Shown here in pieces: positions 16,098 through 22,840 of a DNA stretch of 64,000 nt. Every line of letters starts with the position of its first letter. Within the stretch, counting starts at the first letter, position 1. The translations under genes and the position numbers were made by a program. The notes below the pieces were generated by a model. It saw only the letters and a program-made list of their open reading frames with translations. It was not told the origin of the DNA and did not search any database. Source of the DNA: Serpula lacrymans var. lacrymans S7.9 (lineage: Eukaryota; Basidiomycota; Agaricomycetes; Boletales; Serpulaceae); NCBI RefSeq assembly GCF_000218685.1, contig NW_006763299.1, positions 740,061-804,060 of the forward strand. The letters are read 5' to 3'.

Positions 16098-16239
16098 TTT
16101 ACGGTAATAAGTTTGTAGTAGACAACAGAAGGGTTTAATAGTAATGAAAGTTGGGCGAATTCACTTCCCCCGTTTCCCCACACTCAGCCACAATCTAGAA
16201 CATCCCGGCTGCTATAGCTGTGTTATTGCCAGCAACCGG

Positions 16240-16340
16240 TAGTCTCGAATCCAGACGGGTGGGAACAGAGGTCCCAGACCGTCTGGAGACATTCGTTTCA
16301 GGACGAGTGCATCGAGTCACAATGTCACACTTATAGCTGT
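16240..16340 (+). repeat. Left terminal inverted repeat with subterminal hairpin
   Basis: Begins TAGTCTCG directly after the duplicated AGCAACCGG. Arms TCCAGACGG (16250-16258) and CCGTCTGGA (16279-16287) pair perfectly. Between them TGGGA (16260-16264) pairs with TCCCA (16272-16276), giving a long stem with a 7-nt loop. The region 16310-16326 carries the 17-mer shared with the right end. Confidence 0.8.
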
Positions 16341-16593
16341 TTTTGGGTAGAGAGCTCGTCCAAAAGCAGAAATAGATAACATTTTGTCATCATGATTAGT
16401 CGTACAGTGTAAATAGAGTTTTTTTTTGGGTGTAATGCAATAAGTCGAGTATTTTCTACGCATGACAAGATACGGTCCTCAAGCTCGTCAAATGTCACAC
16501 ACAAAAGACAAAGAACAATCTTACAAACTTCTAAGTCAGCACTGAGACAAAGCAAACCATTATTGCTCCAGGGATGTTCGTCAAAAACTTATA

Positions 16594-16803
16594 ACAAGTG
16601 TTCATGAGCAATGCAGAGGCCGGACTCCATATGAGTGGCAGCTAGATGCCTTGGAAGCCTTCATACTGGGGTTAGATTGTACTATTATAGCAGGCACCGG
16701 GGCTGGCAAGACACTTGCTTTTGTCATGCCCCTATTTACTGACAAAAGCCGGATATTTGTGGTGATATCGCCATTAAAAACCTTGGAAGAAGAGCAGGTT
16801 AGT
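16594..16803 (+). pseudogene. RecQ-like DEAD-box helicase N-terminal fragment
   Basis: Frame encodes RTPYEWQLDALEAFILGLD, then the Walker A segment IIAGTGAGKT, then IFVVISPLKTLEEEQ (motif Ia region). This is the start of the RecQ-type helicases that are highly multiplied in agaricomycete genomes. After LEEEQ the sequence turns into GTTAGT, a plausible intron donor, and the gene does not resume: the Helitron follows. Walker B, the C-terminal helicase lobe and everything downstream are missing, so it cannot unwind DNA. No ATG precedes it closely, and upstream exons were not identified. It faces inward from the left terminal repeat. Confidence 0.8.
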
Positions 16804-16979
16804 AAATTGTATTCCTGGACCCATAGGATCCAGGTTTACATTTCGCAATTGAAGTTTTTTTCTTTCAAGGAGGCTTTATACCCGGTTTGTATTTCCATCC
16901 AAATGACAGGCTGTGCTTTTTCTTTCTCCGCTTTATCTTATCTTCATCGTCGTCTCCCTCTGCACCATCACCTCTTGTC

Positions 16980-19900
16980 ATGGGAAACCAACAGTCCTAC
17001 CCTGCTCCCGACGCTGACACATCTTCTTTGTCGATTTCTGTTGGACATCTCATTTCTTCTGATCCTGTCAATCAAGCTCCTTTCACGTCGGATACTCTGC
17101 CTGCTACTCAAATCCCTACTTCCAATCTTTGTACATGTTTCTCGCTCTTGTGCCACGAACATCACTCACTTTTTTGGACGGCCCATACATCATGTTTGTT
17201 TTTACATGTTGATTAATTGATTTTGATTTGTGAAATGAAATGCACCCGATATACTTGACTCTGCGAAAACTTTTTCATGTTTTCAGGATCTGATGTTACC
17301 TCTGTTATTGTGCCAGCAGTTATCACCGATGTCCCTGTACATGCTTTAGATGATGGTCACTCGTATATCACCACCTACCTACTGAATCGTTCCTTCAAAT
17401 TTCTTGATATCTATAATCATGCTCCTATACATCCCCGTGATTGTTGGCCTACAGGCAAATTGATTGTTGTGCGCTTTGAAGATTTAGCGTCCTTTCTAGA
17501 TAATTTTGATTTTCTGCGTGTTGTTGACATTTGCATGCTGGCTGCAGCCCATCATTTATGACTGCCAGCAAACAATAGGAAGGCTTGGATATTAAGGACT
17601 CTACGTTCCCATACTTGTACATCACAATGTCCGCCAGCCCTTTTGTTGTTTGAATCTTTGCAAGTTGAACATCCTTTTTTGCGTCTCAGACTTCATCGTC
17701 CCAGAACCAAAAATCTCCCTGGTGATGATACTGTCCAACAGCTTCGAAATGACTTGCACAACACTACTCATTCTTGTCAGCAATCTAGACGTGCGCGTGT
17801 CAACGATGCACCCGATGATGACCTTTTTCCTCTTGCACAGGCTCCGCAGTTGAGGCGATCCATCATCACTGAATGGCAAGAGACACTGTCTTATGATGCT
17901 CAGGCTTGCTCCCCTTGTGCTGTGTGTAGTCATAGCTGTGATCGATCTGCTTTGTCTCGCATCCATGCCAATGATTTTTGTTTACAATTACTACAGAATG
18001 CGTGCTTGCCACTTCCAACTGTTCCCTCAACTTATAACTTTGAGGCTTATCAACGTGCTTTATTAGATCCTAGAGCATTGGAAAACCTGGATGCTCCTGG
18101 TTTTATGTGGGTGTGTGATTCGTGCAAGAGGTGTCTCGTACATGATGAAAAGCAACCATTGAATGCCATTGCCAACTTTCAGTACTATGGAACACCCAAA
18201 TTACCAATTGATGTATCTCAATGTTGGGAGACTGCTACTTTGTATGATACTATAATGGTATCCTGGGCTTGCGCAACCAAACTGTCCCATCTCTTTGCTT
18301 ACAAGACAAATGCTGGTGGATTTAGTTCCAATCCCACAATGTCTCAGAAATACATCAAAGGCAATGTTGCAGTCATGCCCCAAGAATCTGTGCAACTGAG
18401 ACAAGTGCTACCTCCTTCTCGACATGAGATTTCTGATGCTATGTGTGCTTTGTTTGTTGGTTGGAAAGTGAAACCTACCAGAGAAAATGTTGCATCTTTG
18501 AAGCCTGTTCTTGTGTCAAAGCAACGTGTACAAACCTCTGCTCCGCAATGTGATGCCCACCTTGATACTTTGCTAATAGATACTGTTGGATATGCGGCGG
18601 GGGACTATACTCCTAAAGACTACAAGCTAATGAAAGCACAGTCATTATCACAAGTACTTGATGGCGGAAATTTTTTGAAAATGCAATCAGGTTCTCAGTT
18701 CATCAATGACAGAGACCAGGGATTAATGAGTTACCTATTTCCTCACTTGGATCCCTGGGGAATAGGAGGCTTCAACGAACCGAATCACCGTCCTGATTAG
18801 CAAATATCATTTGAGAGGCAGGTGCAGAACTTGCTGAAACAACATGACTCACTGTTCCAGAAAGATCCTCGCTTTGCATATGTATGTTGGAACATTCTGC
18901 AGAAAAGGGAGGTTAGTAAGAACACATCGTTCACTGTTAGCTCTCGTGAGCGTGATACAATTGTGCAGGAAATGAAGTCTCTTGCACCTGAACTGACTAA
19001 CATGATATCTTCCTTGGAATGTGATCCTGGTGCCAAACCATCAAATCGGCAACAGAAACGCGCATTAAAACTGTTAAACTGATTGAAGCTTGCTGCAAAG
19101 GAACTGAAAGGGAGCTTCGAATACAAACTGTGCAGGCGAAATGAGATTCGTGCACTTATTAAGAAATTTGGAACCCCTACTTTATTTGTCACTTTAAATC
19201 CTGCCGATTTGTACAATCCGCTACTGGATGTCATTGCAGGTCTGACAGCTGATCGTTGGCGTGAAATGTTGGCGTTTGAGCGTGGCGTTTTTGTCGCGAA
19301 CAACCCTGGTCCCGCTGCTGAGTTCTTTGACACTATGATTAAGTCATTCCTCGATATTGTGGTCCGTTGGAAAAGAGGTCCTGGATTGTTTGGGCACTGT
19401 ATTGAGCATGATGGTATGGTTGAAGCGCAAGGACGTGGCACGTTGCATTGTCACATGCTCTTGTGGATGAAAGGCAATCTGAATCCGCAAGTCCTCCGTG
19501 ATCGCATGACTGCGCATGATGAATTCAAGCAATCAATGTTTCAATGGCTAGAAAACTTGGTATTTTGCCACTTACCTGGTGACACCCACTTGGCTGTAGA
19601 TACTGATACTGTGCCATTGCGGAAACCTCGCTGTGACCCACACAAACCTGACCCTCGATTAACCATGAGTCCTATTTGTGCCAAAATGTCAGATGACGAC
19701 TTTACATCAGCCTTTCAAGATACTGTGCGACAACTCACCATTGATTGCAATTGGCACGAGCACACCGATACCTGTTGGAAGCATCTGAAACCTGGTCAGC
19801 CAAAGGAAGATCAGAACTGCTGCATGCGCATGAATGGCTCTACACAAGCAATGACTGACCTTGATCCTGAAACGCAATCCATCTTGTTGAAGCGTCTTCA

Positions 19901-21245
19901 CCCATGGATCAACAACTTCAATGACCTCATCCTTTTCCTGTTTTGCTGCAATATGGATATCAAATTTATTGGATCTGGGAAAGCAGCCAAAGTGTTAGTA
20001 TATTATGTGACTGACTATATCACTAAATCTCAGCTGCCTACCCATGTTGGCCTCGCTGCTGTGTTGTATGCTATTTGGCAAAATAATGTGAAGTTTGAAG
20101 GACTCGTGGGCTCGTCCTTGGCAGTGAACAGAAGCCTATTCACAAAAACAATAAACACTATTATGGCCAGACAAGAGGTTTCCCACCCACAAGTAATGAG
20201 TTACCTTGTGGGGGGCGGGGATTATTACTGCAGTCATTCGTTTCGGTCTCTTATATGGCAAAATTTTGACAGGTGGATTACTACATCACCAAACATTGTC
20301 GGCACCCACACCGACAACACACCTGTTGACACAGAGATTGATGTAAATATTGACCCAAACCAAACAGTTCCCCCTGCTAATGATCACTTACAGGCGGAGG
20401 AAAGTGGTGCTGATCTTGGTGACCTGCAGGAGGAAAATCTGGACGTTTCAGATCCATTGGATGAGCTGAACTTGACGTTTGGGGATGGTGAGGCAACAAT
20501 GTCCAATGACATGTTCATCTGAAATTGCACCAAGGTCGGCTGCTGACCTTATGTCAGGTAACTGTTCATGTAACAAAGTTGTCTGTTGATGCCGTCTTTC
20601 GTTCTTATGCCTGTCTTGCGCATCGCGACATTGATCCTTGACATGGATATTTTCGATAACACGTTGCAAGGTCGAGGGAAAATTGTGGGCGGCGTACATT
20701 TCCTCCCAAGACTGATTTATAGGATTTAAGTCCAGCGCAGTGAACCATGGCTTGAACAGGATAAGCATTGCACGGGACCATTCTTCCAGTTCAGATGCTC
20801 CACTGTCAGGCCTCGGCAGTCTATGCCCCAGCAGGACAGGAATTATGGGAATGTCTCGCACTCTCAACAAGTGAGATTGAGCTTGCGGGTGTGAAGGCTG
20901 AAAGTAACCCCTATCATTTGCTTGACGGCCAGGATGTGGTAGATTTGCGTTTTGTAAGCCTGCAAGACGTTGATTGTTGCTTTCCTTAGTTGTTTTGGTG
21001 GTTATCTCTGTGAACTCTGAACAGGCAACTTTATTACATGAACAGTTACCTGACATAAGGTCAGCAGCCGACCTTGGTGCAATTGCAGATGAACTGGAGG
21101 ACATGGAAGAACAGTTAGATGACCCTGGTGATTACAATACAGGCAAAAATTGCTCCCCTGATAACATCAATGCTGATCCCGTCATCTTCGCTGCAGAGCG
21201 CTCTAGCATCCTTGACAGTATACCAAATTTTCGACCCCCAACATA
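16980..21245 (+). mobile_element. Helitron remnant: Rep (HUH) protein gene with DUF6570-like N-terminal part
   Basis: A rolling-circle transposon gene, broken. The frame starts MGNQQSYPAPDAD, passes an intron-like AT-rich stretch (about 17130-17286) and continues in one frame to 20523 except for three in-frame stops (17559-17561, 18798-18800, 19080-19082). Recognisable Rep motifs are FVTLNPADLYNP, then GRGTLHCHMLLW (the HUH metal-binding pair) and VYYVTDYITKSQ (catalytic tyrosine region). The upstream part with paired CxxC motifs (CSPCAVCSHSC and CDSCKRC) resembles the cysteine-rich N-terminal region of fungal Helitron proteins. The Pif1 helicase domain is missing. The linker before it (PRPDSGASELEEWSRAM..) is present but inverted. 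The Helitron termini (5'-TC, 3'-CTRR hairpin) were not located. Confidence 0.85.
20523..21084 (-). repeat. Inverted segment of the Helitron gene bounded by 59-bp inverted repeats
   Basis: 20523-20581 and 21026-21084 are reverse complements with a single mismatch. The ~440 bp between them codes, on the minus strand, for the part of the Helitron protein that normally lies between the Rep domain and the sequence that follows on the plus strand at 21026: HPQAQSHLLRVRD, LLGHRLPRPDSG, LILFKPW and DQCRDAQDRHKNERR. Both copies of the repeat encode LLHEQLPDIRSAADLGAI. The segment has therefore been flipped in place and one junction duplicated. Confidence 0.85.
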
Positions 21246-21566
21246 TATTAAGAACAAAGCTTGAAGGAAGCGTCTAGCCACTTGCTGAGAGCAATCAGGG
21301 ACTGGAAACTAGAGTCCAATGTGAGTAACTATATTATTAGAGAGTATGACAGGTATACAGTACCTAGAGTCCAATGTGAGTAACTAGAGAATAGGAAGCA
21401 TTGGACTCTGCAGTACTGTCCGATGGTTTGTAAACAAAGGTAAACAAAGCAGCCACAAAGGCGGAATAATAGAGAACACAATCAATACTGAATGGTAGAG
21501 GGATAGATAGAGAAAGGAATGAAAATATAGCGGTAGCACAAAGGTGCAGAATCACCAAAACTAACA
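21246..21566 (-). mobile_element. Solo LTR family C
   Basis: A full-length 321-bp copy in reverse orientation, bounded by TATTAAGAAC at left and CTAACA at right. It separates the Helitron remnant from the DUF6589-like fragment. The flanking pentamers do not match, so it marks a rearranged junction or a decayed duplication. Confidence 0.88.
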
Positions 21567-21575
21567 CTTTGTGTT

Positions 21576-22226
21576 TCATTTTTCCTGTGAGTCAGTCCTT
21601 GTTAAATGTTGTAGCAGTGCCCATAGCATGGGTGTTCCATCAAACCCAGGGCTTTGAAGCTTTAGTACGAGATCTTCAATGAATAGGCTGGTAAGGCCCT
21701 CCTCAGATACATCTTCAGGAGGGCATTTTGCGAGGTCCTGGATCCTCCTCAGCTCGTCCTCAAGCACCTCTCCAATGCAACCAAACAAAAACTTCTCAAG
21801 AACTCCCTTGGCTCCACTTGCCCGTGCATTGTGAGTGCCTTGTGTGTATGGTGGCTTGGACCAACGCTTGAGAATCTCAGGTAATTCATTGCTGACCATG
21901 AGATTTGCCCTTTCATAGCAAATCTTGGGATCAGCGGTACACTCATGATCTCCCCAGCTCACATAATCGAGGAACAAAGGGAGATTGAGGCCAAGAGATG
22001 ACATGTATTCGAGGACGGCTCAGACTTTGAGGACAGGACTGCTGATGAGCTGACTCTTGAGGTATGCAGTATGTTGCACTTGAATTGGGAGCTGGGGAGG
22101 GTCCTCAGGATCACTGTCAGATTTTGTGTCAGTAGAATTGGAAAATACATGTATGCTACTCTGCGTGAATGGATTGACTTTGTCGTTAAACTGGCCACCA
22201 GGATGATCAATCTCACAGTCAGTCAT
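21576..22226 (-). pseudogene. DUF6589-type protein, N-terminal/central fragment
   Basis: The main frame (22004-21576) encodes LFLDYVSWGDHECTADPKI, YERANLMVSNELPEILKRW, KPPYTQGTHNARASGAKGV and LWALLQHLTRTDSQEK. This is the pattern I recall from DUF6589-containing proteins, a large family of repeated, uncharacterised agaricomycete proteins. An upstream frame (22226-22020) with an acidic SDSDPEDPPQ stretch is probably its N-terminal exon, separated by a frameshift or intron. The C-terminal DUF6589 region proper is missing: the copy ends at the LTR-C. The biochemical role of DUF6589 is unknown to me. It faces inward from the right terminal repeat. Confidence 0.65.
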
Positions 22227-22289
22227 GGCAAGAGATAAGATAACAGTTTGATTATGATTATGTTACTACAAGTTGGCAGGTACTCGGCA

Positions 22290-22384
22290 GGTTTCCCGGC
22301 TAATAAGTGTGACTCGATGCACTCGGCCTGTATCAAATGTCCCCAGACGCTAGCGCGAAGCCCTAGCTTCTGGGTTTGAGACTA
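22290..22384 (-). repeat. Right terminal inverted repeat with subterminal hairpin
   Basis: Ends GAGACTA directly before the duplicated AGCAACCGG. Arms at 22342-22353 (CCCAGACGCTAG) and 22363-22374 (CTAGCTTCTGGG) pair over 11 of 12 positions around a 9-nt loop. The inner stem sequence differs from that of the left end, but the folded form is the same. Confidence 0.8.
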
Positions 22385-22403
22385 AGCAACCGGGTCTGAT
22401 CTA

Positions 22404-22838
22404 TGGTGCGGTTCACTTGAGTGCCGCTACTTTTGTGCAAAATTCTCACCCCCTTCAGAAAAAGTCGGATTTTGATTTCCTCTAGTAAAAATGGTCCTTT
22501 TAATAAGGGGAACATAGTCACAAGACAGATTTTTTATTATGTCAAAACTGAGGGAGATAATTATTTTGATGGCCCCAAATTGGCACATAAGTACAAAAGT
22601 CGCCCAAAATTAATCAAAAAGACGTACAATAGCTTCTGGAACCTGTCTGTGAGACTTGTACTTTGCTGAACTAAACTGCTGAACCTGCAGCTGAGCATCT
22701 TTGGTCTCAAGTTCCGATTGGTAAGCCTCCATCTACTGATATATCCTGTGCTCCCACAGCTGAATGGTGGTCAGGGTTAGTTTGAATGGCCAATTTAGCG
22801 CTTGCACAAAAGTAGCAGCACTCAAATGAACCGCACCA
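22404..22838. mobile_element. MITE, Tc1/mariner-type (TA duplication, 37-bp TIR)
   Basis: A 435-bp element whose ends are 37-bp inverted repeats with two mismatches (TGGTGCGGTTCACTTGAG.. and TGGTGCGGTTCATTTGAG..). It is flanked by TA on both sides (22402-22403 and 22839-22840). No coding capacity for a transposase. Small size, long TIR and TA duplication fit a non-autonomous Tc1/mariner-like element. It sits 10 bp from the duplicated site of the RecQ/DUF6589 element. Confidence 0.85.
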
Positions 22839-22840
22839 TA

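Follow-up and report, generated by a model that had tools for sequence, protein, structure and literature searches.

The stretch analyzed here, the window, comprises 64,000 nucleotides of Serpula lacrymans var. lacrymans S7.9 (C10:740061-804060) and contains an element with inverted ends, at 16240-22384, that holds remnants of a RecQ-type helicase gene and of a gene for a DUF6589 protein. The element is enclosed by perfect 9-bp target-site duplications, AGCAACCGG, at 16231-16239 and 22385-22393. These are the only two occurrences of AGCAACCGG in the window; in a shuffle control, two or more copies were present anywhere in 6 of 100 shuffles. Both copies directly adjoin inverted ends starting with TAGTCTC, the left end reading TAGTCTCGAATCCAGA.. 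from 16240 and the right end, in reverse complement, TAGTCTCAAACCCAGA.., with its last base at 22384. The terminal inverted repeats (TIRs) were placed at 16240-16339 on the forward strand (TAGTCTCGAATCCAGACGG...) and at 22285-22384 on the reverse strand, both with approximate inner limits. An earlier reading of the sequence alone had described inverted repeats of ~100 bp beside a perfect 9-bp duplication. This holds at both borders, but the similarity is patchy rather than even across 100 bp, being found in the 16-nt tips and in 42 nt at 88% identity (16280-16321 and 22308-22349). We searched the genome of 42.6 Mb (29 contigs) for further copies; such searches score the best candidates, so that match and cluster counts given below are lower bounds. 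The left TIR was found at 20 places, itself included (19 further places, some partial), and the right TIR at 12, itself included. This recurrence, which had been proposed as a check, indicates that the window ends are members of a repeat family, so that their pairing is not due to chance.

Between the ends, ~570 bp of transposon sequence survives on the left and ~820 bp on the right. The left part carries an inward-facing N-terminal helicase fragment (16573-16800, forward strand, 76 amino acids) with a Walker A motif (AGTGAGKT) and a DEAD match (E value 8.8e-10), ending shortly past the Walker A motif. It shares 66% identity with the helicase frame of locus L036, a related copy described below, and 59% with residues 34-113 of helicase P0172. 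The right part carries the N-terminal part of a DUF6589 gene, also facing inward (21579-22019, reverse strand); it aligns to the DUF6589 protein P0001 over residues 73-219 of the latter, at 56% identity. This fragment has no match to the Pfam DUF6589 model because it is N-terminal to the modelled part, and the regions for the candidate catalytic residues discussed below are missing from it. Both gene assignments had been made from the sequence alone and stand. As gene parts are missing, we infer that the window copy is dead and unable to move itself.

In the window copy, ~4.75 kb of DNA, Helitron-type and other, has taken the place of the middle. A foreign block of ~4.4 kb (16812-21245), whose right limit is set by the next repeat only and whose copies elsewhere begin at 16810-16812, contains open frames with a DUF6570 domain (17562-18797, forward strand, E value 2.1e-12) and a Helitron_like_N domain (19083-20519, forward strand, E value 2.5e-22). 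It is followed by a second insertion, a 321-bp high-copy repeat (21246-21566) with at least 40 other copies at 96-99% identity (the best 40 of 503 candidates). Of the proposal that a Helitron and a long terminal repeat (LTR) element gutted this copy, the Helitron-type DNA and the presence of a second repeat, at most a candidate LTR, are thus borne out. An exact 23-nt direct repeat lies within it (21309-21331 and 21364-21386), and a 75-nt inverted pair with 96% identity (20513-20587 and 21020-21094) is located towards the end of the Helitron-type DNA.

Scanning of 20 sources in the genome identified eight elements with TAGTCTC-type ends and equal flanks. The 9-bp duplications are perfect in seven of them: the window copy, C2 (18.8 kb), L025 (888 bp), L026 (1830 bp), L027 (1724 bp), L032 (1174 bp), and L038 (5828 bp); in the eighth, L028 (5498 bp), the duplication has one mismatch. 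The C2 copy contains nested DNA, a retrotransposon among it; within this copy, at L021:4572-8834, lies an LTR-retrotransposon-type frame with reverse transcriptase, RNase H, integrase, and chromodomain. Two loci among L041-L046 end in other sequences, CAGACTCC and CAGGCTCC. Their TIRs measure ~250 bp (98.8% identical) and ~200 bp (78%), respectively, and both loci are flanked by perfect 9-bp duplications, CCTGATATG and GGGGGCTGG. Equal 9-bp flanks are therefore present in 10 elements with three kinds of ends, 9 of them perfect, and no motif common to the duplications was seen by eye. The inverted repeats mostly begin with TAGTCTC, with CAGNCTC in two other lineages. L036 has inverted ends ~5.8 kb apart and no equal flanks, and clear ends were not found at L041, L042, L044, L046, and L047, where both genes are nearby; L044 has a 37-bp inverted repeat with unequal flanks. 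Copies with both genes, in convergent arrangement, measure ~5-6 kb. The proposed search for copies that combine the two ends and the two genes with 9-bp duplications was thus successful. The short copies of 0.9-1.8 kb hold ends and gene fragments at most, with helicase fragments still present in L027 and L032.

For four elements (the window copy, L025, L028, and L043), this genome was also searched for empty sites, that is, joined flanks with a single target copy. The L028 junction is spanned by many copies of an interspersed repeat, and three aligned sites each have the target once. The L043 junction is spanned by a paralogous stretch on C1; two aligned sites each have the target once, one of them two bases off from the duplication. 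The empty-site check thus succeeded for these two copies. No paralogous empty site was found in this genome for L025 or for the window copy, whose left flank matched only itself.

These duplications bear on whether the elements belong to the KolobokH lineage of Kolobok transposons, which according to the available portion of PMC9587614 is known from fungi alone and combines a RecQ helicase and a DDD/E transposase within an element with TIRs. The present elements resemble it in their RecQ helicase, predicted DDD/E transposase, and fungal host. However, the same source gives TTAA, 4 bp, as the Kolobok duplication, while none of the 10 elements has it and all have 9 bp; in addition, the genes of the present elements are convergent. 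We therefore reject KolobokH membership, a reading that is barely credible unless the KolobokH target rule is broader than published.

The gene pair itself is best seen at L036, where a DUF6589 frame (PF20231, E value 1.7e-93) runs from one end and a helicase frame, in which DEAD and Helicase_C domains are present, from the other, the two being convergent. The L036 helicase matches recQ_fam with an E value of 3.7e-23 and 82.1 bits, below the curated cut-off of 219.8 bits; for the divergent L041 helicase, the relatives in the PDB are RecQ, BLM, and WRN entries (best E value 3.9e-10). Genome-wide, there are at least 108 stretches matching PF20231, and two helicase queries gave at least 74 and at least 65 matches. 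After clustering, 72 DUF6589 places and 69 helicase places remained. Among the helicase-DUF6589 neighbour pairs within 5 kb, 36 of 41 are convergent; when the helicase positions were rotated 1000 times, convergent pairs averaged 1.0 and never exceeded 7. Half of the DUF6589 clusters (36/72) are without a convergent helicase within 5 kb. Together with L036, these counts support the earlier suggestion that both genes are the convergent cargo of one DNA transposon with TIRs.

The association extends to other fungi. Protein searches, covering the best 120 of 129, 263, and 138 matches, listed the best DUF6589 relatives from Hygrophoropsis, Leucogyrophana, and Serpula, all of the Boletales. DUF6589 and helicase genes have consecutive numbers, in that order, in Agrocybe chaxingu (NLJ89_g10340/g10341), Trametes cubensis (ONZ51_g5810/g5811), and Antrodiella citrinella (EUX98_g4409/g4410). 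Moreover, 11 of 32 named agaricomycete helicases (P0172-P0203) come from a contig that agrees in species and length with that of a listed DUF6589 protein, which is only suggestive where contigs are long. No helicase-DUF6589 fusion protein was found, PF20231 being absent among the best 120 of 138 matches, and no relatives were found among IMG/VR viral contigs.

Nonsynonymous and synonymous rates (dN and dS) were compared between copies. Between subfamilies, the helicase has dN/dS values of 0.15 and 0.23 in two computable stretches, with dS near saturation (2.2 and 1.6), and DUF6589 has a value of 0.34 in the single computable stretch. Where dS is saturated, dN is 0.25-0.39 in the main DUF6589 segments and 0.80 in one distant segment, and 0.27-0.45 in the helicase. 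Very close copies, with few changes, have dN/dS values of 0.5-1.4, which is expected of decaying copies and is by itself no proof of selection. Selection on the genes between subfamilies is thus partly shown, dS being mostly saturated, and the values, which are not a formal test of selection, fit with both genes having been kept during lineage divergence while single copies decay.

Which protein moves the element is suggested by structure prediction. A confident model of the DUF6589 protein has a predicted RNase H-like transposase fold, with the DDE transposases of Hermes and the P element as its closest solved folds, at 8-12% identity in the aligned part. The candidate catalytic triad is D310, D481, and E725 (P0001 numbering), in which D, D, and E are conserved; the second aspartate is separated from the putative final acidic residue by a long helical segment, and D310 falls outside the Pfam DUF6589 model. 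The only Pfam match of P0001 up to an E value of 1 is DUF6589, and there is no NCBIfam match. Given this resemblance to DDE transposases, the transposase is most likely DUF6589, with the RecQ protein as its helper. The likeness to hAT (Hermes) and P elements is one of fold only; these have 8-bp duplications and no known helicase, and membership in either was rejected, as P0001 has no such Pfam match up to an E value of 1. The sequence-only reading had also entertained a helicase-based transposition, whereas the DUF6589 model points to a DDE transposase. Helitrons likewise bear a helicase, and Helitron-type DNA is inserted in the window copy, but they are not known to have TIRs or target duplications and use an HUH nuclease. 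With perfect 9-bp duplications and TIRs here, and with the Helitron-type domains confined to the foreign insert, helicase-driven or Helitron-like movement was rejected.

The same model weighs on the idea that the elements are Mutator-like elements (MULEs) that captured the helicase and DUF6589 genes. Mutator is indeed matched by the 9-bp duplications and by TIRs of 100-250 bp. Nevertheless, neither P0001, with DUF6589 as its sole Pfam match, nor the L036 frames scanned (7 of 13) contain a MULE-type transposase domain, the DUF6589 model itself has a transposase fold, and the same gene pair lies between ends of different sequence and in other species, unlike a random capture. MULE membership was rejected on the lack of that domain, and we consider the capture scenario most improbable.

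The termini, 9-bp duplications, empty sites of two copies, gene pair, and convergence are all directly observed, and the window element is very probably a dead, nested-into transposon of the Academ superfamily, of its helicase lineage (AcademH), with a DUF6589 protein as its predicted DDE transposase and an accessory RecQ-type superfamily 2 (SF2) helicase. The filing follows published descriptions of helicase, duplication length, TIRs, and host phylum. AcademH is reportedly the lineage of Kojima 2020. Like AcademH, the elements have a RecQ-family SF2 helicase, duplications of 9 or 10 bp (9 bp in all 10 elements), TIRs, and a basidiomycete host. The available parts of the literature give 9 or 10 bp for AcademH and 3 or 4 bp for AcademX (PMC10045372), place AcademH in Basidiomycota, Ascomycota, and Mucoromycota (PMC10799480), mention, with a citation, a RecQ helicase in Academ as early as 2013 (PMC3627910), describe fungal Academ copies that contain DEAD and recQ_fam domains and frequently bear host-gene annotations (PMC6416283), and note putative non-autonomous Academ elements in Marasmius oreades (PMC8290104). 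The earlier claims that the gene pair is of unexplained role and points to undescribed machinery are thus not supported: as far as these excerpts go, RecQ helicases in Academ transposons (PMC3627910, PMC6416283) and AcademH duplications of 9-10 bp (PMC10045372) had already been published.

A closely related alternative is a separate, unnamed DDE superfamily of DUF6589 type that has a RecQ helicase and resembles AcademH in duplication and helicase, with an unrelated transposase. P0001 lacks Pfam matches other than DUF6589 as well as NCBIfam matches, and the literature searched, with the defining Academ paper outside it, does not name DUF6589. Yet the fungal Academ and AcademH descriptions, in the portions available, fit the elements in RecQ-family helicase, 9-10 bp duplications, and presence in Basidiomycota, and a separate superfamily seems to us quite improbable. 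The element is accordingly of a known kind. The assignment of DUF6589 as a transposase was not found in print in a literature search that had the likeliest papers, Kojima 2020 and Muszewska 2017, outside it; the four papers matching PF20231 are unrelated by title.

Judging by the predicted structure, DUF6589 would bind the ends and would cut and join via D310, D481, and E725, leaving staggered 9-bp gaps that the host would fill. The RecQ helicase, judging by knowledge of its family only, may open or process DNA, either at the termini or in the course of repair, and the short copies (0.9-1.8 kb) would depend on transposase from elsewhere. Self-complementary stretches occupy 16251-16286 in the left TIR (CCAGACGG...CCGTCTGG) and 22342-22374 in the right TIR (CCCAGA..GCTAG / CTAGC..TCTGGG), and most ends of the TAGTCTC lineage have one of ~30-60 nt. 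The first 75 nt of 27 such ends, which are related to each other and are not independent samples, self-fold with a mean z of -4.2 against dinucleotide shuffles (z <= -2 in 23 of 27), compared with a mean z of -0.1 (2 of 27) for the control nt 201-275 of the same ends. The inner arms vary by subfamily (GGTCCGGGA, GCTAGG, GTTTTGGGAA) yet remain self-complementary. In the CAG lineages, z <= -2 was reached in none of four ends, and tip palindromes are therefore not general. It is conceivable, though on balance unlikely, that DUF6589 represents a DDE transposase family so far unrecognised, acting together with its own RecQ helicase; the latter may open or resolve hairpin-prone tips to allow cutting by the transposase or repair of the gap, in a helicase-assisted cut-and-paste pathway.

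With this explanation, a function is put forward for DUF6589, a Pfam family whose role is unknown and which has at least 108 stretches here and matches in many agaricomycetes. If it is true, many mushroom "RecQ helicases" and "DUF6589 proteins" are transposon genes and not host genes. The candidate catalytic residues D310, D481, and E725 can be mutated directly, and the conserved pairing makes it testable why a cut-and-paste transposon retains its own RecQ helicase.

Just outside the element, at 22402-22440 and 22802-22840, lies a 39-nt inverted repeat with 95% identity. Related copies of it occur elsewhere in the genome, and it looks like a small non-autonomous element in its own right.

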